From Rodentibacter trehalosifermentans (GTDB lineage: Bacteria > Pseudomonadota > Gammaproteobacteria > Enterobacterales > Pasteurellaceae), in the NCBI RefSeq assembly GCF_002000545.1, contig NZ_MLHL01000041.1, forward strand, positions 1 to 41,732: 41,732 bases of DNA, read 5' to 3'. This document shows, one piece after another, positions 15,139 to 41,290 of this stretch. Each line of letters starts with the position of its first letter. Position 1 is the stretch's first letter. The notes under the pieces are model-generated. The model saw only the letters and a list, made by a program, of their open reading frames with translations. It was not told the origin of the DNA and searched no databases. Made by a program: the position numbers and the translations under genes.

Positions 15139-15996
15139 ATGAAATTTGATGAATTAGCGTTATCAGATAGCCAGACAACATTGGATTTAGTAGCAGGAAT
15201 TACCCAAATAGAAAAGGGAAATTATTTGGATTTTACTGTTGATCGTCCTGAGGGTATGAAAGGATATATGTTACAGCTTACGACTTTTGGACATGGAAAA
15301 GTGTTTGACGGTAAGCAGTTTTTTTCTGTTAAACGAGGACAGCTTGTATTGTTTTCACCGAATACGCTTCAGCATTATTATCGCCAACAGGAATGCCAAT
15401 ATTGGCATTATAAATGGATTTATTTTCATCCTAAACCGCACTGGCTAAAGTGGTTGAATTGGAGAAATTGCAGAGAAAATATTGGGCGTATTACCATCAA
15501 TGAGATACTTTCTTTCCAAGAAATTAGCCAACTTTTCAGTAAAATTGCACAAGAATCCGAGTCGAATGATTTGCTTAAGAAGGAAATGAGTTCTGGCTTG
15601 CTGGAATACCTACTGATGAAATGTATTTCAGTGGAAAATATCAAAGAGGCTTCGCCGATTGATAGCAGAATATTAAGGGTTTGTGATCTGATTCTAGAAA
15701 ATTTATCACAAAATTTTAGTGTTGAGTATTTTGCTAACCAAGTCTTTTTATCAGAATCTCGTCTTTCACATTTATTTAAACAATCTTTGGGAATTGGTTT
15801 AATCCAATGGCGCGAGCAGCAACGTATCAGTGAAGCGAAAAAATTACTTTATTTTTCCGGTTTATCAATAAATAAAATTGCGAAATCCTTAGGTTATGAA
15901 GATTCGCTCTACTTTTCAAAAATTTTTAAAAAACATACCGCACTTTCGCCTTCTCAGTTCCGTGTTGGTGAGCTGAGTGGCGAAATCAAAATGTGA
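15139..15996 (+). CDS. araC: Arabinose operon regulator AraC
   Basis: 285-aa transcription factor. The N-terminal cupin arm and sugar-binding domain match E. coli AraC block by block (DRPEGMKGYMLQLT; RGQLVLFSPN; the YWHYKWIYFHP segment; HWLKWLNWRN). The C-terminal double helix-turn-helix (~180-275) includes LSESRLSHLFKQSLGI and SLGYEDSLYFSKIFKKHT. This is much closer than general AraC-family similarity. It lies upstream of and codirectional with the transporter operon, whereas E. coli araC is divergent. Its stop codon overlaps the CRP site of the next promoter. A USS lies near the end (~15940). Confidence 0.88.
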   Translation: MKFDELALSDSQTTLDLVAGITQIEKGNYLDFTVDRPEGMKGYMLQLTTFGHGKVFDGKQFFSVKRGQLVLFSPNTLQHYYRQQECQYWHYKWIYFHPKPHWLKWLNWRNCRENIGRITINEILSFQEISQLFSKIAQESESNDLLKKEMSSGLLEYLLMKCISVENIKEASPIDSRILRVCDLILENLSQNFSVEYFANQVFLSESRLSHLFKQSLGIGLIQWREQQRISEAKKLLYFSGLSINKIAKSLGYEDSLYFSKIFKKHTALSPSQFRVGELSGEIKM

Positions 15997-16007
15997 TCCA
16001 CTTCTCA
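15992..16007 (+). promoter_or_regulatory. CRP binding site of the sugar operon
   Basis: TGTGATCCACTTCTCA matches TGTGA-N6-TCACA with one mismatch. It overlaps the araC stop codon. Its centre is about 90 bp before the predicted transcription start, close to the -93.5 position of the CRP site in E. coli pBAD. Confidence 0.75.
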
Positions 16008-16019
16008 GTTTATTTGCCA

Positions 16020-16057
16020 TAGCGGATTTTTCCATATATTTAACAGAAAGTTACCTA
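16020..16057 (+). promoter_or_regulatory. Tandem AraC half-sites (araI1/araI2-like)
   Basis: TAGCGGATTTTTCCATA (16020-16036) is an exact TAGC-N7-TCCATA, the E. coli araI1 pattern. A second, weaker site, TAACAGAAAGTTACCTA, starts 21 bp later at 16041, exactly the spacing of I1 and I2. The second overlaps the -35 region, as in pBAD. Confidence 0.85.
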
Positions 16058-16083
16058 TGTTTTTTGAATTAAGTCACTAAGAT
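16055..16083 (+). promoter_or_regulatory. Predicted AraC-dependent core promoter
   Basis: A poor -35 (CTATGT, 16055-16060) overlaps the distal AraC half-site and a -10 TAAGAT (16078-16083) follows after 17 bp. A weak -35 touched by the activator site is the expected design of an activator-dependent promoter. Confidence 0.65.
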
Positions 16084-16148
16084 GTTTGATAGCCTTAATT
16101 GCTGTTACAAAATTAAGGAATCATTATTCATTTTATGAGGACAATCTT

Positions 16149-17175: not shown

Positions 17176-18666
17176 ATGTCTTTTATTTCAATGCGTAATA
17201 TTAATAAAACTTTTAATGGTGTAAAAGCCTTAAATGAGATTGAATTATCATTAAATTATGGCGAAGCGCTTTGTTTGGCCGGGCAAAATGGCTGTGGTAA
17301 ATCGACACTCATTAAAATTTTATCAGGTGTTTATCAGCCGGATTCCGAGGCGGAGATCCAGATTGGGGCAAGTCAATACGATAAATTAACACCGGAAGAA
17401 TCTATCAACAAAGGTATTCAGGTTATCTATCAGGATTTGTCTCTTTTTCCTAATTTGAGTGTTGCAGAGAATATTGCAATGAATGCGTATCGCCAATTCG
17501 GTTGGGTAAGTTCTCAAAATATACGAGAGATCGCTCGCCAAGCAATTGATAGCATTAATGCAGATTTGAATTTAGATGACATTGTTGAAAATTTACCTAT
17601 TGCCAGACAACAATTGGTCGCGATTTGTCGAGCATTAGCGCAAAACGCCAAATTATTAATTATGGATGAGCCAACAGCTTCATTAACGGCAAAAGAAGTG
17701 AATCATCTGCTTGATGTGGTGATTAAGCTGAAAAGTAAAGGGATCAGTATTATTTTTGTTAGTCATCGATTAAAAGAGGTGATGACAGTATCAGACAGCG
17801 TATTAGTGCTGAAAGATGGCAACGTGGTGGGGAAGTATCCGATTAATGAGATAGATGAAAAGCGTTTGGCTTTTCTAATGAGTGGGGTAGAAATTAATAA
17901 AGTGCGGTTAAATTTACCCGATTTTTCGCACTCTCCAACTATACTTGATGTAAAAAATTTTATACTTGAACATCAATATCAAAATATTAATTTTTCCGTT
18001 AAAAAAGGAGAAATTGTTTCTTTCGTCGGACTGCTTGGTGCCGGAAGAACAGAACTTTGTTTGAGTCTATTCGGTATCACACAGCCAACGAGTGGAAAGT
18101 TATATTTAAACGGTGAATTAACAGAAATTCGTAATAACCGTGAAGCAATCGAAAAAGGAATTGTTTATGTTTCAGAAGATCGAATGAATACCGGCTTGAT
18201 TATGGCGGAATCTATTCATCACAATATTATTTCAACTATATTTAAACAGATTGCAAATCCTATCGGTATTATTCAAGAACATAAAGCTCGTCAATATACA
18301 AATCAGCTTATTCAATCATTAAACATTAAAGTATCTGATCCTGATCTTCCGGTTAATACATTATCGGGTGGTAATGCTCAGCGGGTTTCCATTGCTAAGT
18401 GGTTAGCAATCACTCCTCAAGTGATTATTTTAGACTCTCCTACTATTGGTGTGGATGTTGCTAATAAGGAAGGAATCTTCCAAATTATTCAATCCCTCTC
18501 AGAGCAAGGTATGAGTATTATTTTTGTGACAGATGAAATAGAAGAAGCTTATTATTATAGCCATCGTGTATTGGTAATGAGAAAAGGAGAAATTGTCGCT
18601 GAATTCATACCATCAAATTGTACTGAACAAGATATTGAGGAATTGGTTTATGAAAAATCCGCATAA
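17176..18666 (+). CDS. Sugar ABC transporter ATPase (two domains)
   Basis: 496-aa double ATPase of the CUT2 family (RbsA/AraG/LsrA type), energising pentose import. Domain 1 has Walker A GQNGCGKST and Walker B LLIMDEPTASL. Domain 2 has the usual degenerate Walker A GLLGAGRTEL, signature LSGGNAQRVSIAKWL and VIILDSPTIGVD. Start at 17176 with AAAGGAGA before it; an earlier in-frame ATG at 17146 lies inside the hairpin. Its last 17 bases overlap the next gene. One USS near 17900. Confidence 0.92.
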   Translation: MSFISMRNINKTFNGVKALNEIELSLNYGEALCLAGQNGCGKSTLIKILSGVYQPDSEAEIQIGASQYDKLTPEESINKGIQVIYQDLSLFPNLSVAENIAMNAYRQFGWVSSQNIREIARQAIDSINADLNLDDIVENLPIARQQLVAICRALAQNAKLLIMDEPTASLTAKEVNHLLDVVIKLKSKGISIIFVSHRLKEVMTVSDSVLVLKDGNVVGKYPINEIDEKRLAFLMSGVEINKVRLNLPDFSHSPTILDVKNFILEHQYQNINFSVKKGEIVSFVGLLGAGRTELCLSLFGITQPTSGKLYLNGELTEIRNNREAIEKGIVYVSEDRMNTGLIMAESIHHNIISTIFKQIANPIGIIQEHKARQYTNQLIQSLNIKVSDPDLPVNTLSGGNAQRVSIAKWLAITPQVIILDSPTIGVDVANKEGIFQIIQSLSEQGMSIIFVTDEIEEAYYYSHRVLVMRKGEIVAEFIPSNCTEQDIEELVYEKSA

Positions 18667-19600
18667 TAAGATTTTATTTATTACATTATTAATACTATGT
18701 ACATTACTAAGTCTATTTACCCAAGATTTTCTTTCAATTGAAAATATTTATGATGTAATAAATAACTACGCCATATTGATGATACTAGCTTGTGGCTTAT
18801 TTGTCGTACTTATTTCAGGAGGAATTGATATTTCATTTCCGGCAATGACGATTATAGCCCAATATATAATGATAAGCTTAATCCAGCACTATGATGTAGG
18901 ATTGTTAGGTGTGTTTGTTATTGCAAGTATAGTCGGTATTTTATTAGGATTAATTAATGGTGTTATTATTCATAAATTAAATGTACCTTCCATCATTATT
19001 ACTATTTCAACACTCAATATTTTTTATGGTGGATTGTTATATATTACCAAGGGCGTTTGGTTATATGATTTTCCAGAATGGTTTCAAAAAGAGCTAATAT
19101 TATTCAAACAAACTAGTACAGAGGGAAGTGAATACGGGTTATCTTTTCAAATCCTTGTTGCCGTATTTGCCATATTTCTGACAGCAATAATGACAAACAA
19201 ATTAACTTTAGGTCGTAAAATTTATGCCTTAGGTGGAAACAAAGAAGCCGCTTCTCGAATGGGGTTCAACTTGTTTTATCTACATTTAGTTGTTTATGGT
19301 TATATGGGATTAATGGCGGGGCTTGCAGGTGTCGTGCAATCTTATACCGTGCAATCCGTTGCGCCGGATTCATTGCTCGGCTATGAATTAACTGTATTAG
19401 CGGCAGTTGTGTTGGGAGGTGCGAGTTTATCAGGGGGAAAAGGAACACTATTAGGCACAATAATGGGCGTTATTCTATTAGCCGTTATTCAAAATGGCTT
19501 AAACTTATTAAATATTTCTTCCTATTGGCAAACCGTTATCACCGGTTGCATTATCATTTTAAGTGTGAGCGTTACCGCATTTACGCAACGGAAAAAATAA
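18650..19600 (+). CDS. Sugar ABC transporter permease 1
   Basis: 316-aa inner-membrane permease, RbsC/LsrC type, with about eight to ten hydrophobic segments. The family block is GGIDISFPAM near the N-terminus and VLGGASLSGGKGTLLGT near the C-terminus. Start at 18650 with GAGGAATT before it; a longer frame from 18593 lies inside the ATPase gene. Coupled to the ATPase by the overlap. Confidence 0.9.
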   Translation: MKNPHNKILFITLLILCTLLSLFTQDFLSIENIYDVINNYAILMILACGLFVVLISGGIDISFPAMTIIAQYIMISLIQHYDVGLLGVFVIASIVGILLGLINGVIIHKLNVPSIIITISTLNIFYGGLLYITKGVWLYDFPEWFQKELILFKQTSTEGSEYGLSFQILVAVFAIFLTAIMTNKLTLGRKIYALGGNKEAASRMGFNLFYLHLVVYGYMGLMAGLAGVVQSYTVQSVAPDSLLGYELTVLAAVVLGGASLSGGKGTLLGTIMGVILLAVIQNGLNLLNISSYWQTVITGCIIILSVSVTAFTQRKK

Positions 19601-19610
19601 GGAGAGTAGA

Positions 19611-20552
19611 ATGAAACTAAAATCGGATAATACCATTAAATATCTCTTTCTATTATTTATTATTGCTGTTTCAACATTTAGTATCTTAATTCCTGATATA
19701 TTTTGGTCAATCGCTAACTTTCAATCAATGGCTTCGCAAATTGCAGTATTGGGTATTTTAACTTTAGCAATGGCAATTCCTATGCTGACAAGCGGTATTA
19801 ACTTATCAATTATTGCAACAATGAATGCTTGTGCACTAATTATTGCTTATTTTATTACTAAACAAGATGGTATTAGTTATTTATTGATAGGATTATTGTT
19901 AAGTTTATTATGTGCTTTTATTATTGGTATGTTTAATGGAATATTAATTTCTCTTATTAGAGTATCACCAATTCTAGCCACTTTAGGGACAATGACCTTA
20001 ATTAATGGGTTAAATATTCTGATGACAGATGGGTCAACTATTGCTAATTTTCCATCAGGTTTTTTATCTATTAGTTCTACAACATTTTTTCTTATTCCCT
20101 TTCCATTAATTATATTTTTAATTTTAGCATTAATTGTTTGGTTTATATTGGAGAAGACAACAATTGGAAAATCAATTTATTTCATTGGGAATAATGAAAA
20201 GGCAACATTTTACTCAGGGATTAATACTCAAAAAGTTATTATGATTGTTTACGTTATCTCTGCTATTCTTTGTATCTTTGCTGCGATATTAATGATGTCA
20301 AAATTAAACTCAGCTAAAGCCTCCTATGGCGATTCTTATTTGTTAATTTCAATCTTAGCTTCTGTATTAGGTGGCGTTAATCCTGATGGGGGAAAAGGAA
20401 AATTAATTGGCATTTTAATTGCTTTAGTTTTATTACAAATCATAGAAAGTGGTTTGAATATGCTGGGAATAAGTAGTTATATCACGATGATATTATGGGG
20501 AGCTTTACTTATTTTATTTATTTTCTTACAAAAATATCGTTTATTTAAATAA
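19611..20552 (+). CDS. Sugar ABC transporter permease 2
   Basis: 313-aa second permease of the same fold, with SGINLSIIATMNA and VLGGVNPDGGKGKLIGIL blocks. Two different permeases point to a heterodimeric channel as in the Lsr, Rha and Ytf systems, unlike AraFGH with one permease. AAGGAGAGTAG precedes the start 10 bp after permease 1. This gene is noticeably more AT-rich than the neighbouring core genes. Confidence 0.9.
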   Translation: MKLKSDNTIKYLFLLFIIAVSTFSILIPDIFWSIANFQSMASQIAVLGILTLAMAIPMLTSGINLSIIATMNACALIIAYFITKQDGISYLLIGLLLSLLCAFIIGMFNGILISLIRVSPILATLGTMTLINGLNILMTDGSTIANFPSGFLSISSTTFFLIPFPLIIFLILALIVWFILEKTTIGKSIYFIGNNEKATFYSGINTQKVIMIVYVISAILCIFAAILMMSKLNSAKASYGDSYLLISILASVLGGVNPDGGKGKLIGILIALVLLQIIESGLNMLGISSYITMILWGALLILFIFLQKYRLFK

Positions 20553-22206: not shown

Positions 22207-25200
22207 CTATTCTGTGGTTAATTCATCAGCAATTTCTTCGGCTTGTTGTAGGACGAAGGTGATGGCCTCTTCTGCTTTATCCGGGGGATATTTATATTTT
22301 TGCAACGCTCGGCGAACAAGCAGTCGAATTCTTGCCCGCACGGCTTCTTTATGCTGCCAGTCTATACTCACCGATTTTCGCAGAATATCGGTGATCTCTT
22401 TTGCTAACGCAGAAAGGGTTTCATCTTGCATTAATTCCCTTGCACTTTCATTTTGGGCTAGAGCATCATAAAACGCCAATTCCGCCACACTTAAGCCTAA
22501 TTTTTCTCCACGCCCTAAACGTTCGGAGAAATCCCGCCCCATTTGCACTAGGGCATCGAGAATTTCAACCACTGTGAGATTGTGGTTGTGATATTGATTT
22601 AAGGCTTCTTGCAAACGTTGTTCAAAGTCTTTCTGTGCAGCAAGGTTTCGCCCAGCTTTGGCTTTGATTTCTTGCTTCAAGTAGCGTTCCATTGCCAATA
22701 CCCAAAGGCTTTTGGTTTCGCTATTTTTTATCGCCTGCAAAAATTCATCAGAAAGTAAATTGATTTGAGTTTGCTCTCTACCGAGTAGTTCAAACAAATC
22801 AATTGTTCCACTGGAAACAATACTTTGGTTGATTAAGGCTTTAAGTTGAATAAGCCGTTCTTGCGTGCCGGTGCCTTTTTGTTCACGTTTGGAAAGCACC
22901 GCACGCACCGCATCATAAAATGCAATTTCTTGATTATAGGGTTCTGCCTCTTTTAATGCACCACAGAGGGCATAGCCTTTTTTCAGGCTACTGACGGTTT
23001 TTAAAAAGAGTTTTTTGCGAGGCTCTGGATCGTCTGAATTTTTCCATTGCTGATGATGAACTTTGTTATCATCAGGTTGTTGATCAAGGGAGTTGATATG
23101 GTTTGCCGCAAGGGCAATGGCTTTAAGTAAACGTGAAGGATCACTTTCAGTAAGCGCCGATTGCACATCAAAAGCCTTCCCGTTAATTTGAGTAGCGAAC
23201 AACGTACGGATAAATTCCAACTGTTCTTGCATTTTAAAGAACACCGCATCGGTATCCTTTATAAAGCCAGTACTACCGCCTGCATTGGTATAATCTTCCA
23301 TTGCTTTTTTTAATTCATCGACTAACCCGATATAATCTACTACTAATCCACCATTTTCACGGCTTTTATTAGAAAAAACACGATTTACACGGGCAACCGC
23401 TTGCATTAAATTATGTCCTTTCATTGGCTTGTCGAGATACATTGTGTTACAACAAGGCACGTCAAAGCCTGTTAGCCACATATCACGCACAATCACGATT
23501 TTCAGCGAATCATTCGGATCTTTAAAACGGCGTTCCAGAGTTTGCTTTTCTTGCTTATTATAAATGTGCTTTTGCATTTCAGGGGGATCGCTCGCCTGTC
23601 CATCTCGTCCAGTTTTCCCTGTCATTACAATTTTTATTGTGCCTTGATTGATATCATCAGAATGCCATTCAGGGCGAAGTGTAACAAGTTCATTATACAA
23701 ATTGACACAAATCTGACGGCTGGAAACCACAATCATTGCTTTACCATCTTGTTGCTCATTACGTTTTTCAAAATGTTCAACAATGTCTTTTGCAAGCTCT
23801 TTTAAGCGGGAAGGGGCACCTAACAAACGTTCACGCAAATTGAGGCGAACACTCTCTTCCTTGTCTAAAATATCATCAATTTCATCAAATAATGCTTGAT
23901 GATCTGATTTATTCAAGTCAATTTGACGAGGAAAATAAGCTAATGGAACCGTTGTGCCATCATCAATGGCATTTACAAAATCATAAATAGAGACATACTG
24001 CCCAAATACTTCCTGTGTGTCTTTATCTTCAAGGCTAATCGGCGTTCCCGTAAAGCCGATAAAAGAGGCATTCGGTAGGGCATCCCGCAAATGGCGGGCG
24101 TAGCCCGCTTGATATTTGCCCTTATCTTTATGCAATTTTTGAGTAAAACTATATTGGCTGCGGTGTGCCTCATCGCTAATTACAATAATATTAGAACGAG
24201 CGTTCAACAGGGGGAATTGGCTTTCTGTTTCCTCTAAACCAAATTTTTGAATGGTGGTGAAAAACACTCCGCCGGATTCACGTTCACTTAATAATTGGCG
24301 AAGGGCTTCCCGATCTTCCACCTGTTGTGGCGTTTGTTTAATTAAATCTTTACCGCTACTAAAGGTTTGGAAAAGTTGTCCGTCTAAATCGTTGCGGTCG
24401 GTCACCACCACAATGGTTGGGTTTTTCAATTCAGGCTGGGAGAGTAGTTTGCCCGCATAAAAGAGCATGGAAATAGATTTGCCCGATCCTTGCGTATGCC
24501 ACATCACCCCAATGCGTTTATCGCCTTTTTCACTGGTGGCGAAAAGAGTGGATTCCACAGCCTCATTCACCCCGTAATATTGATGATAAGCGGCAATTTT
24601 TTTGATTAACGCCCCATTAGAAGCCCGTTCAAACAACACAAAATAACGCACATAATCCAACAATTTTTGCGGTGTAAGTAAGCCATTAAGCAAATTTTGC
24701 AATTCATCGCCAAAATCCAACCGCTGGCTTTGGTTTTTTTCATCCACCACTTTCCAAGGCGTAAACCGTTGGAAATCCGCTGAAAGCGATCCTAATCGAG
24801 CATTTAAACCATCACTGATAATCAAGGCTTGGTTATAAACAAACAGATCGGCAATTTCATCTTTATAGGTTTGCAACTGATTGAAGGCTTGTAATAAATC
24901 GGCGGATTCACGCAAGGGATTTTTCAACTCAAACACCACCAAGGGCAAGCCATTCACAAAACCGATAATATCGGGAATCCGTTTGCCCCCTTTACGGCTG
25001 CGAATTTCCAACTGATTGACCATCACAAAGCGGTTATTTTGCCAATGTTCAAAATCCACCAAACGAGCCACATCAAATTTCTGCTCACCGTTTTGTTGAT
25101 ATTCCACCTTCACGCCATCTCGTAGCATTTTATAAAACGTCTGATTTCGCCCGACCAATTCGCCAATATCGCCTTTAGTCACCAATTTCACCACAAAATC

Positions 25201-25395
25201 AACCGCACTTTCAGGCAGTTGCGGATTGAGTTTTTGCACCGCTTTTCGCAATATTCCCACAAATACCACGCCCCCCAAATCCCCGCGGGCAAATTCCCCT
25301 TCGGAAACCGGTAAATCTTTGCCAAAGCGATAGTCCCAACCAAGGTTTTGTAGGCGTTGGAGGGTGAGTTGTTCGATTGTGTTTTCGTTTATCAT
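22207..25395 (-). CDS. hsdR: Type I restriction enzyme, R (motor/nuclease) subunit
   Basis: About 1062 aa. With HsdM and HsdS it translocates and cuts DNA lacking the host methylation. The N-terminal nuclease domain shows PDIIGFVNG...VVFELKNP (D and E-x-K of the PD-ExK fold, ~150-175). The helicase domain has TQGSGKSISMLF (Walker A), VTDRNDLDGQLF, SDEAHRSQY (DEAH box) and FTGTPI. A long helical C-terminus ends QAEEIADELTTE. Of two ATGs (25401 and 25395) the second has GAGGG at proper spacing. It looks intact. It is separated from hsdS by an inserted RAYT and REP repeats. Confidence 0.95.
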   Translation of the reverse strand: MINENTIEQLTLQRLQNLGWDYRFGKDLPVSEGEFARGDLGGVVFVGILRKAVQKLNPQLPESAVDFVVKLVTKGDIGELVGRNQTFYKMLRDGVKVEYQQNGEQKFDVARLVDFEHWQNNRFVMVNQLEIRSRKGGKRIPDIIGFVNGLPLVVFELKNPLRESADLLQAFNQLQTYKDEIADLFVYNQALIISDGLNARLGSLSADFQRFTPWKVVDEKNQSQRLDFGDELQNLLNGLLTPQKLLDYVRYFVLFERASNGALIKKIAAYHQYYGVNEAVESTLFATSEKGDKRIGVMWHTQGSGKSISMLFYAGKLLSQPELKNPTIVVVTDRNDLDGQLFQTFSSGKDLIKQTPQQVEDREALRQLLSERESGGVFFTTIQKFGLEETESQFPLLNARSNIIVISDEAHRSQYSFTQKLHKDKGKYQAGYARHLRDALPNASFIGFTGTPISLEDKDTQEVFGQYVSIYDFVNAIDDGTTVPLAYFPRQIDLNKSDHQALFDEIDDILDKEESVRLNLRERLLGAPSRLKELAKDIVEHFEKRNEQQDGKAMIVVSSRQICVNLYNELVTLRPEWHSDDINQGTIKIVMTGKTGRDGQASDPPEMQKHIYNKQEKQTLERRFKDPNDSLKIVIVRDMWLTGFDVPCCNTMYLDKPMKGHNLMQAVARVNRVFSNKSRENGGLVVDYIGLVDELKKAMEDYTNAGGSTGFIKDTDAVFFKMQEQLEFIRTLFATQINGKAFDVQSALTESDPSRLLKAIALAANHINSLDQQPDDNKVHHQQWKNSDDPEPRKKLFLKTVSSLKKGYALCGALKEAEPYNQEIAFYDAVRAVLSKREQKGTGTQERLIQLKALINQSIVSSGTIDLFELLGREQTQINLLSDEFLQAIKNSETKSLWVLAMERYLKQEIKAKAGRNLAAQKDFEQRLQEALNQYHNHNLTVVEILDALVQMGRDFSERLGRGEKLGLSVAELAFYDALAQNESARELMQDETLSALAKEITDILRKSVSIDWQHKEAVRARIRLLVRRALQKYKYPPDKAEEAITFVLQQAEEIADELTTE

Positions 25396-25406
25396 GAGCA
25401 TCCCTC

Positions 25407-25437
25407 GTAGGGTGTGTGAACCGTAGGTTCACGCACA
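25407..25437 (+). repeat. REP a
   Basis: GTAGGGTGTGTGAACCGTAG then its arm: stem 25412-25422 with 25426-25436, 3-nt loop, one G-T pair. It touches the hsdR ribosome-binding site (the GAGGG on the - strand lies at its edge). Confidence 0.85.
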
Positions 25438-25460
25438 AATGAAATAATAAAACCATTATT

Positions 25461-25480
25461 TTTGCGATCACAATCGCAAA
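25461..25480. repeat. Perfect hairpin upstream of the RAYT gene
   Basis: TTTGCGAT, loop CACA, ATCGCAAA: an 8-bp perfect palindrome between hsdR and the RAYT gene. It differs from the REP family. It could affect transcripts in either direction. Confidence 0.6.
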
Positions 25481-25503
25481 TTCAATAAATTACATTTTGG
25501 TAA

Positions 25504-25532
25504 GCGTGTGAATTGGTTACAATCCATACACA
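25504..25532 (+). repeat. Degenerate REP copy
   Basis: GCGTGTGAATTGGTTACAAT followed by CCATACAC keeps the order of the REP palindrome with several mismatches in the stem and a missing TAGGG head. Probably an old REP at the left of the RAYT gene. Confidence 0.5.
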
Positions 25533-25594
25533 AAATAACTGATATTGTTATTCGTAAGTGAACCAGTGCTTCCCTCTACATTAATCAATATATT

Positions 25595-26089
25595 ATGTCT
25601 TTTTATCGCCGAAATTATATTAAAGGCGGCACATTTTTCTTTACCGTTAAACTTGCCGACCCAAAATCTCATTTGTTGATTGAACATATTGATTTATTGC
25701 GAGAAGCATATCAATTTGTTAAACAAAAATACCCGTTTAAAACCGAAGCGATTTGTATTTTACCCAATCATATTCATTGCATTTGGACATTGCCCGAAAA
25801 TGACAGCAATTATTCGTTACGTTTGCGGTTATTAAAAACGAGATTTTCATCACATTTTAAAGCCAAGAATAATTTATCCCCTAGCAAACAACGCCGAAAG
25901 GAAAAAGGCATTTGGCAACGCCGATTTTACGAGCATACTATTCGTGATGATAAAGATTTTGAAAATTGCGTTAATTATATTCATTACAACCCTGTCAAAC
26001 ACGGTTGGGTTGAAAAAGTAAAAGATTGGCAATTTTCAACATTTCATCAATACGTTAAAAATAAAATATATCCCGAAAATTGGGGATAG
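25595..26089 (+). CDS. REP-associated tyrosine transposase (RAYT)
   Basis: 164-aa single-domain Y1-type HUH transposase, the family thought to mobilise or maintain REP palindromes. The metal-binding HUH motif is HIH in LPNHIHCIWTLPE (~residues 58-60); the catalytic tyrosine is in the helix FENCVNYIHYNPVKHGW (~residues 130-140); WQRRFYEHTIRDD is also diagnostic. It appears complete. It lies antisense inside the hsd operon, between hsdR and the small ORF. Its stop codon TAG (26087-26089) is the TAG that begins the adjacent REP b. REP palindromes flank it on both sides. Confidence 0.93.
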   Translation: MSFYRRNYIKGGTFFFTVKLADPKSHLLIEHIDLLREAYQFVKQKYPFKTEAICILPNHIHCIWTLPENDSNYSLRLRLLKTRFSSHFKAKNNLSPSKQRRKEKGIWQRRFYEHTIRDDKDFENCVNYIHYNPVKHGWVEKVKDWQFSTFHQYVKNKIYPENWG

Positions 26090-26117
26090 GGTGTGTGAAT
26101 TGGAATAATTCACGCAC
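26087..26117 (+). repeat. REP b (overlaps the RAYT stop codon)
   Basis: TAGGGTGTGTGAATT, loop GGAAT, then the complementary arm: stem 26091-26101 with 26107-26117. Confidence 0.88.
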
Positions 26118-26166
26118 ACAACATTCGTTTTATCGAACAAGGATTTAATGTTATTTGATAATATTC

Positions 26167-26199
26167 GTGCGTGAACCTTACGGTTTACCAATCCGTAGG
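26167..26199 (-). repeat. REP c (inverted, decayed)
   Basis: Starts GTGCGTGAACCTTACGGTTT, but the last arm and the CCCTAC end are scrambled. Opposite orientation to REP b, 50 bp away, making a mosaic pair. Confidence 0.65.
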
Positions 26200-26226
26200 G
26201 TGTGTGAATTGGAACAATTCACGCAC
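26195..26226 (+). repeat. REP d
   Basis: TAGGGTGTGTGAATTGGAAC and its arm: stem 26200-26210 with 26216-26226. Confidence 0.88.
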
Positions 26227-26277
26227 GCAAATATTCATTTTAGCCAAACAAGAATTTAATGTTATTTGATAATATTC

Positions 26278-26309
26278 GTGCGTGAACCTTGCGGTTCACA
26301 CACCCTACG
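26278..26309 (-). repeat. REP e (supplies the stop of the 84-aa ORF)
   Basis: Stem GTGCGTGAACC (26278-26288) with GGTTCACACAC (26293-26303), then CCCTACG. Read on the - strand, its TAGGG head provides the in-frame TAG stop of the neighbouring ORF. Confidence 0.88.
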
Positions 26310-26559
26310 CACTAAAAATATTTTTTAATGTATTAAAACGCCCTTTATTATCAGTAATCTCTAAAATATTTTTTGCAATTAGAATATTTCTTTGCTTACG
26401 TTCTGTTTTCCAATTTTCAAAAACTTCTTTGTATGCTTCAGGATCAAGGGTGTGTAAGATTTCATCTCTGGAAAAACAAATATTACTGATATTTATTTCT
26501 CCTTCAGCATTAAGTTCTTCAATGAAAAGACGTTCTAAATAATCGGTAGTTCTATTCAT
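26305..26559 (-). CDS. 84-aa ORF in the hsd operon, probably truncated by a REP
   Basis: A protein I do not recognise: MNRTTDYLERLFIEELNAEG at the start, then a charged helical stretch with FENWKTERKQRN. The ATG at 26559 overlaps the hsdS end by 8 bp (AATGAATAG) with GGTGA as ribosome binding site, so it is a coupled member of the operon; a GTG at 26571 is less well placed. The last codons, Ser-Ala-stop, coincide with the start of REP e, so the original gene was probably longer and lost its 3' part to the REP/RAYT insertion. Confidence 0.6.
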   Translation of the reverse strand: MNRTTDYLERLFIEELNAEGEINISNICFSRDEILHTLDPEAYKEVFENWKTERKQRNILIAKNILEITDNKGRFNTLKNIFSA

Positions 26560-27874
26560 TGAATTCACCACTTAATAATCTAGGCAATAACAAATCTCTA
26601 ACACTAGCCAATTCTTCAGAATTTTGGCTATTTACTAAGATTTTCTCTAAAATAGCTTGAATTTTATTTTCAAATAAAATATGACATTCTTTGTTTGCCC
26701 TAATAATAGGGAATTTCAATAATTCTTTTGTACTGATATTCGCTTGTGCTGAACCTTTTGAATTCATCTCTGCAAATTCTTTAAATTGTTTCTGGCGTGC
26801 TAAACAATAAATGTAATTGTAGAAGTTATGGTTTTTATCTATTTCTTTAGGAAGAAATTTTGCGACTCGTTGATTTAGCATTGCAACTTTTCCTTGTGGA
26901 ATACGACCAACTTCGCCAACATAACCTGTTAATCCAACCAAAATATCACCACTGGTTAGTAGAAAATCGGGTCTTAGATTTTGATATTCATTGGATACAA
27001 AGCCATTACCTTCTACTTCAACAATTATCGGTTTTATCGAACCAATTTTAATTACAGGGATACCTCTTTCAGTCCAATCTGAACTTTTGAAAGCATAGCC
27101 ATTTTGCATTTCACAGATTTCTGAAAGTGTAGTTTTTTCCCACCCCCTCGGCACTTCCCCAAATCCCTCAACCTCCTCAAATTCACTTGGAAAGGCTTTG
27201 GCCATTTCTGCCAATTCTGCGTATTGGGCGGGGTGGGTTTGGGAAAGGGCGGTTAATTCTTCCGGTGTTTTTCCGCTGATGATTTGCTGAGCGGCAAGTT
27301 CGGCTTCTGCTTGGGTTTTGCCTTGTGCGAGGCTATCTGCTTTGGCTCGCACGGGGTCGAAATCCACAAACCAACTTTTAAAAATTGCTTGGGCGATTTG
27401 TTCTAAGGTTTGGTTGATTTGGGTGTTGAGTTGGATTTTTTTATCGAAAATAGATAATTTTCTTCCAATTTCACATCTATGTACTTTATCTTTTGGAATT
27501 CTAATTTTCAATGAATGTGCATTTTCTCTATTCAAACCTGGAACGGCAGAATCAGAATTCATTTCTGATAATCCCAATGTTTTTAATAAATAATAAGTAA
27601 ATTTTAATTCTTCAATATCATCATTTAGTACATAAAAAGCTGTGTCTATAACCCAAAATGGTTTTTCAGATAAATGAACAGCTCCAACACTTCCTTTTCT
27701 TCCGATAATTATTCCTGCACTATCAACACAGCTTGAATTGTGAAAATCTACAACTCCATTTGAGCCATAAACAGGTACATCACCAGAGATACGCTTTGAT
27801 TGCGGTAATGCTTTTCCATAAATGAAAGGGCAGTATTCTCCAACAGTCGTTTCGATCCATTCTATTTTACTCAT
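26552..27874 (-). CDS. hsdS: Type I restriction-modification specificity subunit
   Basis: 440 aa. Provides the DNA sequence recognised by the HsdMS methylase and HsdRMS nuclease. Two target-recognition domains are seen: residues ~1-150 (IEWIETTVGEYC... to the KKIQLNTQINQTLEQIAQA helix) and ~235-400 (GWEKTTLSEICEMQNGYAF...). They are separated by conserved helical spacers; the central one carries FKSWFVDFDPVRAKADSLAQ and an Ala/Glu-rich segment, and the end reads LLLPRLLSGEFNE. The start overlaps hsdM by 8 bp. It appears intact. Confidence 0.93.
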   Translation of the reverse strand: MSKIEWIETTVGEYCPFIYGKALPQSKRISGDVPVYGSNGVVDFHNSSCVDSAGIIIGRKGSVGAVHLSEKPFWVIDTAFYVLNDDIEELKFTYYLLKTLGLSEMNSDSAVPGLNRENAHSLKIRIPKDKVHRCEIGRKLSIFDKKIQLNTQINQTLEQIAQAIFKSWFVDFDPVRAKADSLAQGKTQAEAELAAQQIISGKTPEELTALSQTHPAQYAELAEMAKAFPSEFEEVEGFGEVPRGWEKTTLSEICEMQNGYAFKSSDWTERGIPVIKIGSIKPIIVEVEGNGFVSNEYQNLRPDFLLTSGDILVGLTGYVGEVGRIPQGKVAMLNQRVAKFLPKEIDKNHNFYNYIYCLARQKQFKEFAEMNSKGSAQANISTKELLKFPIIRANKECHILFENKIQAILEKILVNSQNSEELASVRDLLLPRLLSGEFNE

Positions 27875-29539
27875 ACCCCAACCCTCCCAAATTTTTCTTA
27901 ATCTCTGCTTCTAATTCTGCACTTTGTTTAAACTGTTCTTTCAAAAGTGCGGTCAGTTTTTGCATTTTTTCGGCAAAGGGGATGCCGTCGTCTTCTTGTT
28001 CGGCGGTGCCGACATAACGGCCTGGGGTGAGGACGTAATCGTTTTTTGCAATGTCCTCTAAGGTGGCTGATTTACAGAAGGCAGGTTGATCTTCATAGCC
28101 TTGTGATTTTTGCCAAGCGTGGAAGGTGTCGGCGATTTTGGCGATGTCTTCATGGGTGAAATCGCGCAGTACCCTAGTTTTCATATAACCGATTTGGCGG
28201 GCATCAATAAATAGCACCTCATTTTTACGGGTTTTGTTACGATTTAAAAACCAAATACAGGCAGGAATTTGGACATTGGTAAAAAGTTGTGAAGGCAAAG
28301 CGACCATAGCTTCCACAAGATCCGCTTGCACAATGGCTTTGCGGATTTCCCCTTCGTTGTTGGTTTGGCTAGTCATGGATCCGTTGGACATCACCATCGC
28401 TATTTTTCCTCTAGGGGAAAGATGATAAATCATATGTTGTAGCCAAGCAAAGTTGGTGTTGCCTTTGGGCGGTGTGCCGTATATCCAGCGGGGGTCGTTT
28501 GTGAGGCTTTTATGAACCTCTTCCGTGAATGTGAGGTTAAAAGGTGGGTTCGCCATAATAAAATCCATCTTTTGTTCAAGATGTAATGGCTGGCTGAACG
28601 TATCAGCATAATAGTCGCCGAAATCATAGGGAATACCACGAATTGCCATATTCATAATGGCGAGCTTTCGGGTGGTTGGGTTGAATTCTTGCCCGTAGAT
28701 GGACACTTGGTTGATATTGCCTTGATGGGCTTGAATAAAGCGTTCCGTTTGTACGAAAAAGCCGCCGCTTCCCATTGCCGGGTCATAAACCCGTCCAAAG
28801 TAGGGTTCGATCATTTCGACAATGAGAGATACGATGGATTTAGGGGTGAAATATTCTCCGCCCCGTTTACCTTCCGCCTCGGCGAATTGTCCGAGGAAAT
28901 ATTCATAAACGTGCCCTAAAATATCTTTTGCGCCTAGATGAATGGGTTCACCGTTGTAAGAGGCTTGGGTGAAGTTCGTATCAGAAAAGAGATTAATGAG
29001 ACCACGCAAGGTATTTTCATGGACTTCGTAGCGGCTGACACGTTCTAATGCACCTTTGAGTTTTTCGTTATCTTTTTCTATGGAATCAAAGGCATCATCA
29101 ATCAGGCGTGCGACACCGGCGAATTTGCCACCCCAAGGTAATTCCGTGCCGGTATTAAAAAGGGCGACAGATTGTAAGGCTTGCCAACGGGCGGAAGGTG
29201 GCACCCAGAAGAGATTATCCGCAATATAGTAATCACGATTTTCCAATTCGGCGGTGAGGGCTGCTTGATAGTCTTCATCGGAATCGTAAAAAGTGCGGTC
29301 AAGATAAAGGGGATTTTCAGGATCGGCAAGCTCCGCAAGGATTTTTTCCTGATGGGCGGTGAAACTGTCGGAGACGTATTTTAAGAAAATTAAGCCGAGA
29401 ACAATGTGTTTATAATCGGAGGCGTTGAGTTGTTGGCGAAGATGGTCAGCAGCAGACCAAAGTTTTTTATCTAATTCATTAAGAAAGGCTTGCTGTGTTA
29501 GCGTTTCATTGACACAATCTTGGTGGCTTGGCTTGGCAT
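27867..29539 (-). pseudogene. hsdM: Type I methyltransferase, frameshifted near the 5' end
   Basis: N6-adenine methyltransferase subunit. The frame from 27867 to about 29500 encodes a full HsdM: N-terminal LTQQAFLNELDKKLWSAADH, SAM motif VYDPAMGSGGFFVQ and catalytic ANPPFNL. In that frame no ATG, GTG or TTG occurs before a weak TTG at 29246, which would remove ~100 residues of the N-terminal domain. A proper start, ATG at 29537-29539 with AAAGGAT before it, opens one frame away and meets a stop right after ATG AAA CGC (29509-29501). Adding one A to the AAA at 29504-29506 would join the two frames into 557 aa. So there is a one-base loss, real or a sequencing error. Confidence 0.85.
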
Positions 29540-40143: not shown

Positions 40144-41181
40144 CTACTGCCAAATCACTTCTTGATGAATGATTTTACGTTGCCAATAACCGCACCATTC
40201 GTTGTTTTCGTTGGTGGTTTTTAAGCATCGACTGAGTACATCAATAAACTGGGTTTTATTGGATTGACGGCGGTTATCCTCGCGGTAGGCGATTTCGTTG
40301 GCATAGTTGAGCAAATATTCGTTACTGATGCGGTGAACCTGCCCGTAGTACATTCGCTTGAATCGACTGAATAGACTTTCCGCCTGATTATTCGTTACGC
40401 CTAAATCGTTTCGATATTCCTCTTTATGGTTGACAGTGCGTAAATCATAATACGGCAGCAAGACATCATAGGCATTGCTTTCATCGGTATTAATTCGCGC
40501 ATTAGGCTTAATGAATTTGTCAGCAAAGCTTTTTACTACGGATTGTGATTCACTATGAGCCACGAAAACAAGTGAACGTTTTGCCCCATAGTGTAAAACA
40601 TTGTTGGCTTTTTCGTCCGCAGAATAATGCTCACGAGCGACCATCACACAACGCTTATTTGGATTTTGATGTTCTTTTAAACGATAATCCAAGCGGTCAG
40701 ATTTTTTGTTTGCTTTGCGTGGTGCGGGATGAACGTAAGTCCCGTCCATATCAATTTCACCGGAAAGCGGCTGCATATCACGGCTTTCCAGCAAGGCTTT
40801 ACGGAATTTATAGGATAACACAAAGGCAGTGCGAGGGTTTAATTTGGCGTTACGCGCCAGTTGGAGTGAAGATAAGCCTTTCACAGCATTGACCCATTCC
40901 ATCAAGGCATAAAGATAGACTTTAATCGGTTTCTTACGATTGGCAAAAATTGTGCCGGACGTTACGCTAAAAGTATGCTGACAATGTTTACAACGCCATT
41001 GATTGCGTGTTTTGATACGGTAGGCGATATGTTGAACACCGCACTTCGGGCAAACCACATTCTCTTTATTTCCCCATCGAAGCTCGCAAAGCAAATCGAA
41101 CGCTTGTTCGTCTGAGAGTTGAGCTATCTCATAGGACGAAAGCGTGCGAGCTTTGCTTGAGAGGAGGAAATGTTGGGCCAT
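40144..41181 (-). CDS. IS1595-family transposase
   Basis: About 345 aa. N-terminal zinc ribbon (CPKCGVQHIAYR ... CKHCQHTF), then the ISXO2-like DDE-type catalytic domain (GEIDMDGTYV, INTDESNAYDVL, and the NNQAESLFSRFKR block with H/N and E). I start at 41181 (MAQHFLLSSKARTLSSYEIA), the usual beginning of the family; 20 further in-frame residues upstream (to 41241) do not resemble it. I could not find clear terminal inverted repeats or a target duplication in the flanks, so the element's ends are undefined. Confidence 0.9.
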   Translation of the reverse strand: MAQHFLLSSKARTLSSYEIAQLSDEQAFDLLCELRWGNKENVVCPKCGVQHIAYRIKTRNQWRCKHCQHTFSVTSGTIFANRKKPIKVYLYALMEWVNAVKGLSSLQLARNAKLNPRTAFVLSYKFRKALLESRDMQPLSGEIDMDGTYVHPAPRKANKKSDRLDYRLKEHQNPNKRCVMVAREHYSADEKANNVLHYGAKRSLVFVAHSESQSVVKSFADKFIKPNARINTDESNAYDVLLPYYDLRTVNHKEEYRNDLGVTNNQAESLFSRFKRMYYGQVHRISNEYLLNYANEIAYREDNRRQSNKTQFIDVLSRCLKTTNENNEWCGYWQRKIIHQEVIWQ

Positions 41182-41217
41182 AATCAGTTTACAGTTTGTG
41201 CGAAAAATAGTTATAAT

Positions 41218-41235
41218 AATGCTCAAATAGGCATT
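41218..41235. promoter_or_regulatory. Palindrome upstream of the XRE gene
   Basis: AATGCTCAAATAGGCATT is an AATGC-N8-GCATT inverted repeat. Its AATGCTCAA half recurs inverted as TTGAGCATT at 41291-41299, over the XRE start codon. Candidate operator pair for the repressor; inference only. Confidence 0.4.
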
Positions 41236-41290
41236 TTTCATTCTTTAATGATGCCATAAATTTCCCTGAAAGTCAATAAGGAATGCAAAA

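Follow-up and report, generated by a model that had tools for sequence, protein, structure and literature searches.

What does a promoter of the E. coli pBAD type control when it stands in front of a transporter and kinase operon, and which sugar is sensed by the AraC regulator encoded beside it? The question is raised by a locus of Rodentibacter trehalosifermentans, a rodent-associated member of the Pasteurellaceae, on contig NZ_MLHL01000041.1, of which 41,732 nucleotides were analysed (hereafter the window); the genome comprises 2.59 Mb in 122 contigs. An aroG-like gene, assigned by eye, is followed by araC, the promoter, and genes for a binding protein, an ABC ATPase, two permeases and an FGGY kinase (Table 1). 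The initial annotation had described a pBAD-like promoter outside the araBAD context and proposed that L-arabinose controls it. We think it fairly probable that a pBAD-type promoter has here been re-used for uptake of a ketopentose, probably D-ribulose, under an adjacent AraC whose effector has probably changed.

Table 1. Features of the araC-transporter-kinase locus, with positions in the window
Feature	Position	Strand	Basis
AraC regulator, 285 aa	15139..15996	+	NCBIfam AraC equivalog, 354.7 bits; E. coli AraC structures matched by sequence; residue comparison
CRP-like site TGTGATCCACTTCTCA	15992-16007	+	9/10 positions of TGTGA-N6-TCACA
AraC half-site I1 TAGCGGATTTTTCCATA	16020-16036	+	10/10 to TAGC-N7-TCCATA
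AraC half-site I2 TAACAGAAAGTTACCTA	16041-16057	+	exactly 21 bp after I1; 7/10
Weak -35 CTATGT	16055-16060	+	overlapped by I2
-10 TAAGAT	16078-16083	+	17-bp spacing from -35
Probable ribosome-binding site GAGGA	16137..16141	+	by eye
AauA-like sugar-binding protein, 324 aa	16149..17123	+	PDB 9I1M (EHEC AauA), 497.5 bits; 6/6 D-ribulose contacts the same
Sugar ABC transporter ATPase	17176..18666	+	profile/sequence match
ABC permease 1	18593..19600	+	start uncertain: TTG listed, overlap with ATPase gene
ABC permease 2	19611..20552	+	sequence match
FGGY-family ketose kinase, 532 aa	20567..22165	+	sequence matches and kinase tree

Beyond the kinase gene, type I restriction-like genes (by eye R, S and M) occupy 22207-29246 on the minus strand, and between R and S lies a small ORF resembling a transposase (25595-26089). 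An IS1595-type transposase-like ORF, also recognized by eye, is found at 40144-41241.

The promoter elements named in the initial annotation are all present: a CRP site with one mismatch to the consensus TGTGA-N6-TCACA, an exact AraC half-site, a second half-site exactly 21 bp on, and a weak -35 and -10 separated by 17 bp. The CRP-like site overlaps the araC stop codon. Its claim of pBAD-like distances also stands, with I2 lying over the -35 and the CRP site centred near -90 if transcription starts at about 16090 (assumed to be 7 bp after the -10). The start of the CRP site precedes I1 by 28 bp in the window versus 29 bp in E. coli pBAD. I2 begins 37 bp before the -10, and the E. coli I2 begins at the same distance from TACTGT, which we take to be the -10 of pBAD (the E. 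coli distance was counted by eye; the script chose another hexamer). Even the weakness of I2 is shared, since E. coli araI2 also scores 7/10. With a CRP site directly upstream of a direct half-site pair that keeps the 21-bp step and whose second member overlaps the -35, the promoter at 15992-16083 almost certainly belongs to the pBAD class, and it stands before a transporter and kinase operon rather than araBAD.

There are also differences from the E. coli arrangement. The araC gene of the window lies upstream in tandem rather than divergently, the operon encodes a transporter and a kinase, the AraC sugar pocket is altered (see below), and a clear araO2-like site is lacking. The last point had been made from the window sequence, and a search from -1400 to +700 around I1 in 24 loci likewise gives no convincing site for a repression loop: besides I1 nothing matches at 10/10, and the only two matches at 9/10 (in L029 and L031) are minus-strand sites at -300. 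Five further loci, the window included (about 15720), carry an 8/10 match at the same place. This minus-strand site falls within the araC coding stretch and may reflect either coding conservation or a looping site. Another half-site-like sequence is found near +500 to +560 in most of the 24 loci, in coding DNA of the binding-protein gene. Both were put aside as araO2 candidates on account of their coding position, although either may have a function.

Conservation of the half-sites in relatives carrying the same genes had been proposed as a test of the promoter. Among 140 Pasteurellaceae genomes surveyed, 50 encode a relative of AraC with an E value of at most 1e-40. From these, 22 loci (the window and L016-L036) are grouped here as type III: their AraC proteins are 60-100% identical to that of the window, araC directly precedes an aauA-like gene, and no araA adjoins. 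The operon is broken by a contig end or scattered over contigs in two cases (G044 and G121). The test is passed in every locus, as I1 and I2 are 21 bp apart in 22/22; I1 is exact (10/10) in 19 loci and one position short (9/10) in three, and I2 scores 6-8 throughout. The CRP site is likewise fixed at 28 bp before I1 in all 22 (9/10 in 21 of them, 8/10 in one), and predicted control of the promoter by CRP is well supported by this conservation. In 20 loci, of which 15 were found by script and five by eye (L016-L019 and L028), I2 begins 37-38 bp before a TAAGAT hexamer; L030 has TAAAAT in its place and L035 is without TAAGAT. Rodentibacter, Muribacter muris, Mannheimia, Nicoletella, Histophilus and Necropsobacter are represented among the 13 named type III loci. 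The gene order from araC through binding protein, ATPase and permeases to kinase is complete in 11 of these, and the remaining two stop at a contig end. The nearest named loci are all from Rodentibacter (R. mrazii, R. rarus, R. caecimuris and two genomospecies), with AraC identities of 87-93%.

Similar half-site pairs occur more widely. Other Pasteurellaceae araC genes, mostly in an araC-kinase-araA arrangement, have a pair scoring at least 14 downstream in 25 of 29 rows; three of the exceptions (L125, L147 and L149) have no pair at that score and the fourth (L150) is unscored. The next relatives of type III, G010 and G012 (L038 and L037), which carry araA in the cluster, score 0 at +21, and by eye the spacing to their second half-site is about 22 bp. 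Outside the family, the pair before the aau genes scores 15/20 in E. coli and 14 and 16 at two Klebsiella loci, while a Pantoea locus with the gene make-up of Rbl, the D-ribulose locus of Citrobacter rodentium, has no half-site pair upstream (score 11). One Klebsiella locus (L162, pair score 14/20) is on a plasmid, where the aau-like genes lie beside predicted arsenic-resistance genes.

On its DNA side, the regulator of the window is a conventional AraC. It exceeds the NCBIfam cut-off for the arabinose-regulator family (208 bits). As a canonical reference we used E. coli AraC together with 34 AraC proteins of Pasteurellaceae (35 in all), calling positions near-invariant when common to at least 95% of them, and the window protein keeps 24 of the 25 such positions in its DNA-binding domain. 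Its sugar pocket departs from this pattern. Relative to E. coli AraC, whose numbering is used throughout, it carries H80Q, H93Y and I46M and has no equivalent of P8. T24, R38, Y82 and W95 are retained, so that three (P8, H80 and H93) of the seven arabinose-pocket positions considered (P8, T24, R38, H80, Y82, H93 and W95) are changed. R38 and W95, together with I46, are presumably pocket residues.

The same positions stand out across type III. H93 is replaced in all 22 regulators, P8 and I46 in 21 each, H80 in 17, R38 in nine and T24 in five; Y82 and W95 are replaced in none. P8, H80 and H93 are present in all 35 other AraC proteins, that of E. coli among them. Of 42 near-invariant positions of the ligand domain, P8, I46 and H93 are the only ones altered in 90% or more of type III regulators, with the proviso that the arm containing P8 is divergent and of uncertain alignment. 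Changes extend beyond the chosen pocket list to Y13 (17 of 22), I26 (13), L10 (11) and V20 (10). The excess of changes in the pocket is weak for the window protein taken by itself (3/7 versus 4/35; Fisher p=0.077); over the 22 rows it reaches p=0.02, where the rows are related and not independent. The 22 regulators form one clade (support 86, unstarred), so their pocket changes amount to little more than a single event rather than 22 independent ones. The sister group consists of two regulators from aau-araA loci with canonical pockets. Within the clade the Necropsobacter protein (L035) branches first, and H93 is the only one of its seven pocket positions that is changed. Changes at P8, T24, H80, Y82 and H93 yield an engineered AraC that responds to salicylate, according to the available part of PMC6350385, and our search of the open-access literature returned no further direct data on the AraC pocket.

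The genome itself offers no match to L-arabinose isomerase (araA), and L-arabinose catabolism was accordingly rejected for this organism. The araA gene has no match in 14 of the 22 type III genomes, is present only as fragments in three (G091, G094 and G095), and is full in five. Each of these five also has a second AraC match. They are G044, G117, G126, G128 and G131, where two AraC proteins, one per pocket type, are accompanied by similar half-sites at their promoters, and cross-talk between them is possible. The three genomes with araA fragments also have a window-type araC and aau genes, as if L-arabinose use had been lost and the other operon kept. The consulted portion of PMC9430855 gives R. 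pneumotropicus as without genes for L-arabinose use and R. heylii as having them, the latter being a synonym of R. caecimuris (PMC12802175, in the part available). The R. caecimuris locus matches L020, from G131, and the presence of araA in G131 agrees with that report.

Other arrangements occur in the family. Three clusters (L151, L138 and L152, from G010, G039 and G012) join araC, aauABCD, a kinase gene and araA, with several genes of the G012 copy broken into pieces. Two genomes, G035 and G036 (L153 and L154), combine aau genes with a canonical-pocket AraC and a kinase of the E. coli AraB type (60-61% identity), and have no araA match. A lack of araA thus does not force a change of pocket, and the change was rejected as a strict indicator that araA has been lost.

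The transporter points to a substrate. The binding protein of the window is matched to AauA through PDB 9I1M, because the E. coli protein at L124 equals the 9I1M chain save at one position. AauA of enterohaemorrhagic E. coli (EHEC) binds D-ribulose with a Kd of 1.98 uM versus 598 uM for L-arabinose, a preference of more than 200-fold, by way of K37, W43, E118, H167, E196 and S223 in chain numbering, which is one above that of the gene (Cottam et al. 2025; PMC12307932, part of the text). All six contacts have the same residue in the window protein (K33, W39, E114, H163, E192 and S219). They are also the same in 30 of 31 rows compared, a set that takes in E. coli, the window and part of the type III loci and counts some genomes twice; the exception is a distant protein from G114 with D at one contact. 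The operon therefore likely imports a ketopentose, with D-ribulose as the predicted substrate. L-ribulose is a possible substrate too, since an araD-family gene scores above cut-off elsewhere in the genome.

The kinase is less easily placed. It is 63-69% identical to Pasteurellaceae kinases encoded next to araA and 69-73% identical to three relatives whose genes do not adjoin araA. A tree that includes 12 of the 22 type III kinases groups 11 with these three relatives (SH-aLRT 94, below the mark of 95), apart from the araA-linked kinases. The twelfth, from Necropsobacter, sits among the araA-linked kinases. Assignment as AraB was rejected (weak similarity, 22% over 139 aa), as was assignment to the Rbl type, for which the kinase of the Pantoea Rbl-like locus served as a stand-in for C. 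rodentium RblK and gave no blastp match at E 1e-3. XylB is the best NCBIfam match, far below the cut-off (120.3 versus 380.25 bits). The kinase probably also lies outside the known D-ribulokinase group RbtK, because the consulted part of a 2011 survey (PMC3245297) confines that group to Alphaproteobacteria. Of two relatives of the window kinase that lack a neighbouring araA, one (L157, 4472-7101) follows an aldolase-like gene of the dihydrodipicolinate-synthase type and the other (L158, 5724-8474) a transaldolase-like gene, both named by eye.

Several known systems resemble parts of this locus. Like EHEC Aau, an accessory system for L-arabinose and D-ribulose uptake, it has a homologous binding protein with the same ribulose contacts, the order binding protein-ATPase-two permeases, and an upstream AraC half-site pair, which is the stronger of the two. 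Unlike Aau, which needs the core-genome AraC (PMC11127945, in part) and relies on AraB (PMC12307932, in part), the operon of the window comes with an FGGY kinase and with a dedicated AraC encoded next to it. Rbl shares with it a related transporter and a dedicated kinase gene, but an isomerase gene is missing after the window kinase. Rbl is described without a cognate regulator gene in the portion of PMC12307932 available. The araC-kinase-araA operons of Pasteurellaceae have homologous AraC and kinase proteins and a similar half-site pair, but they include araA and keep the canonical arabinose pocket. No description of the locus was found in titles and abstract openings of the open-access literature on Aau, D-ribulose, AraC in Pasteurellaceae or arabinose in Rodentibacter, nor in the available part of PMC13076348.

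The mechanism that best unites these observations would operate as follows. The promoter is predicted to be occupied by CRP, near -90, and by an AraC dimer bound across I1 and I2 (I2 overlapping the -35), which would recruit RNA polymerase, the adjacent araC supplying the activator of the operon. The AauABCD-like transporter would import a ketopentose, most likely D-ribulose, and the FGGY kinase would phosphorylate it for entry into the pentose phosphate pathway. AraC would have retained its reading of DNA while its sugar pocket was remodelled in a lineage with an araA-less operon. Because of this remodelling, the inducer is probably the substrate that the operon itself takes up, or a sugar closely related to it, rather than L-arabinose. 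For the change of effector by itself, we put the chances at about even or better. A fuller reading, to which we would give even chances, is that the effector of a naturally occurring AraC has changed, D-ribulose (or a close ketopentose) taking the place of L-arabinose, while the protein's DNA code and the entire pBAD promoter were kept, and that the change followed a traceable path. That path would lead from aau-araA clusters with a canonical pocket (G010 and G012), through Necropsobacter with H93 alone of the seven pocket positions changed and a kinase that falls among the araA-linked ones, to the fuller remodelling and different kinase branch of Rodentibacter, Mannheimia, Histophilus and others.

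The control by L-arabinose proposed in the initial annotation is not supported. No araA was found in the genome, the binding protein resembles AauA, for which D-ribulose preference is reported (PMC12307932, in part), and several pocket positions of AraC are changed. Still, the same promoter could serve an AraC that senses L-arabinose as an outside cue, a gratuitous inducer for ribulose uptake. EHEC sets the precedent: in the parts available of PMC12307932 and PMC11127945, aau is induced through AraC by L-arabinose, and not by D-ribulose, even though AauA prefers the latter. The window protein still scores as an arabinose regulator and retains T24 and R38, Y82 and W95 are kept in 22/22 type III regulators, and G035 and G036, with a canonical pocket and no araA, resemble such logic compressed into one operon. 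For type III, however, we judge this reading unlikely, as H93 is replaced in every regulator, H80 in most and R38 in nine, whereas 34 other Pasteurellaceae AraC proteins, about 37-57% identical to that of the window, keep all three.

It is similarly doubtful that AraC senses the phosphorylated product, another pentose or a pentitol, or that the transporter carries L-ribulose or a different ketose. Induction of C. rodentium Rbl by D-ribulose is lost without the kinase, so that in that system the signal may be a metabolite (PMC12307932, in the part available), and the araD-family gene of the genome would suit L-ribulose; the identity of all six D-ribulose contacts in the binding protein argues the other way.

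A chance origin of the half-sites in AT-rich DNA is a negligible possibility and was rejected: exact half-sites alone are not rare (seven in the genome versus two for the reversed pattern) and I2 is weak, but no dinucleotide shuffle of the 164-bp stretch in 20,000 reaches the pair score of 17 (10+7), only I1 among the seven has a good partner, and the register is kept in all type III loci. Any exact half-site at all appears in just three of the 20,000 shuffles. The score of 17 is unique on both strands of the window, where three other pairs reach 14, and the six other exact half-sites of the genome lie inside stop-free frames of 161-710 codons with a best 21-bp partner of 5/10.

AraC and pBAD form a textbook sugar switch whose pocket has already been engineered by hand for new inducers. 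The AraC of the window is a candidate direct regulator of D-ribulose uptake; the available part of the Rbl study (PMC12307932) found no such regulator for Rbl, and Aau uses L-arabinose as its signal instead. In the five genomes that encode both pocket types of AraC, cross-talk is testable. If the effector switch is real, nature would have re-engineered the AraC pocket while the DNA side was held constant, and an apparent intermediate would survive in the family.
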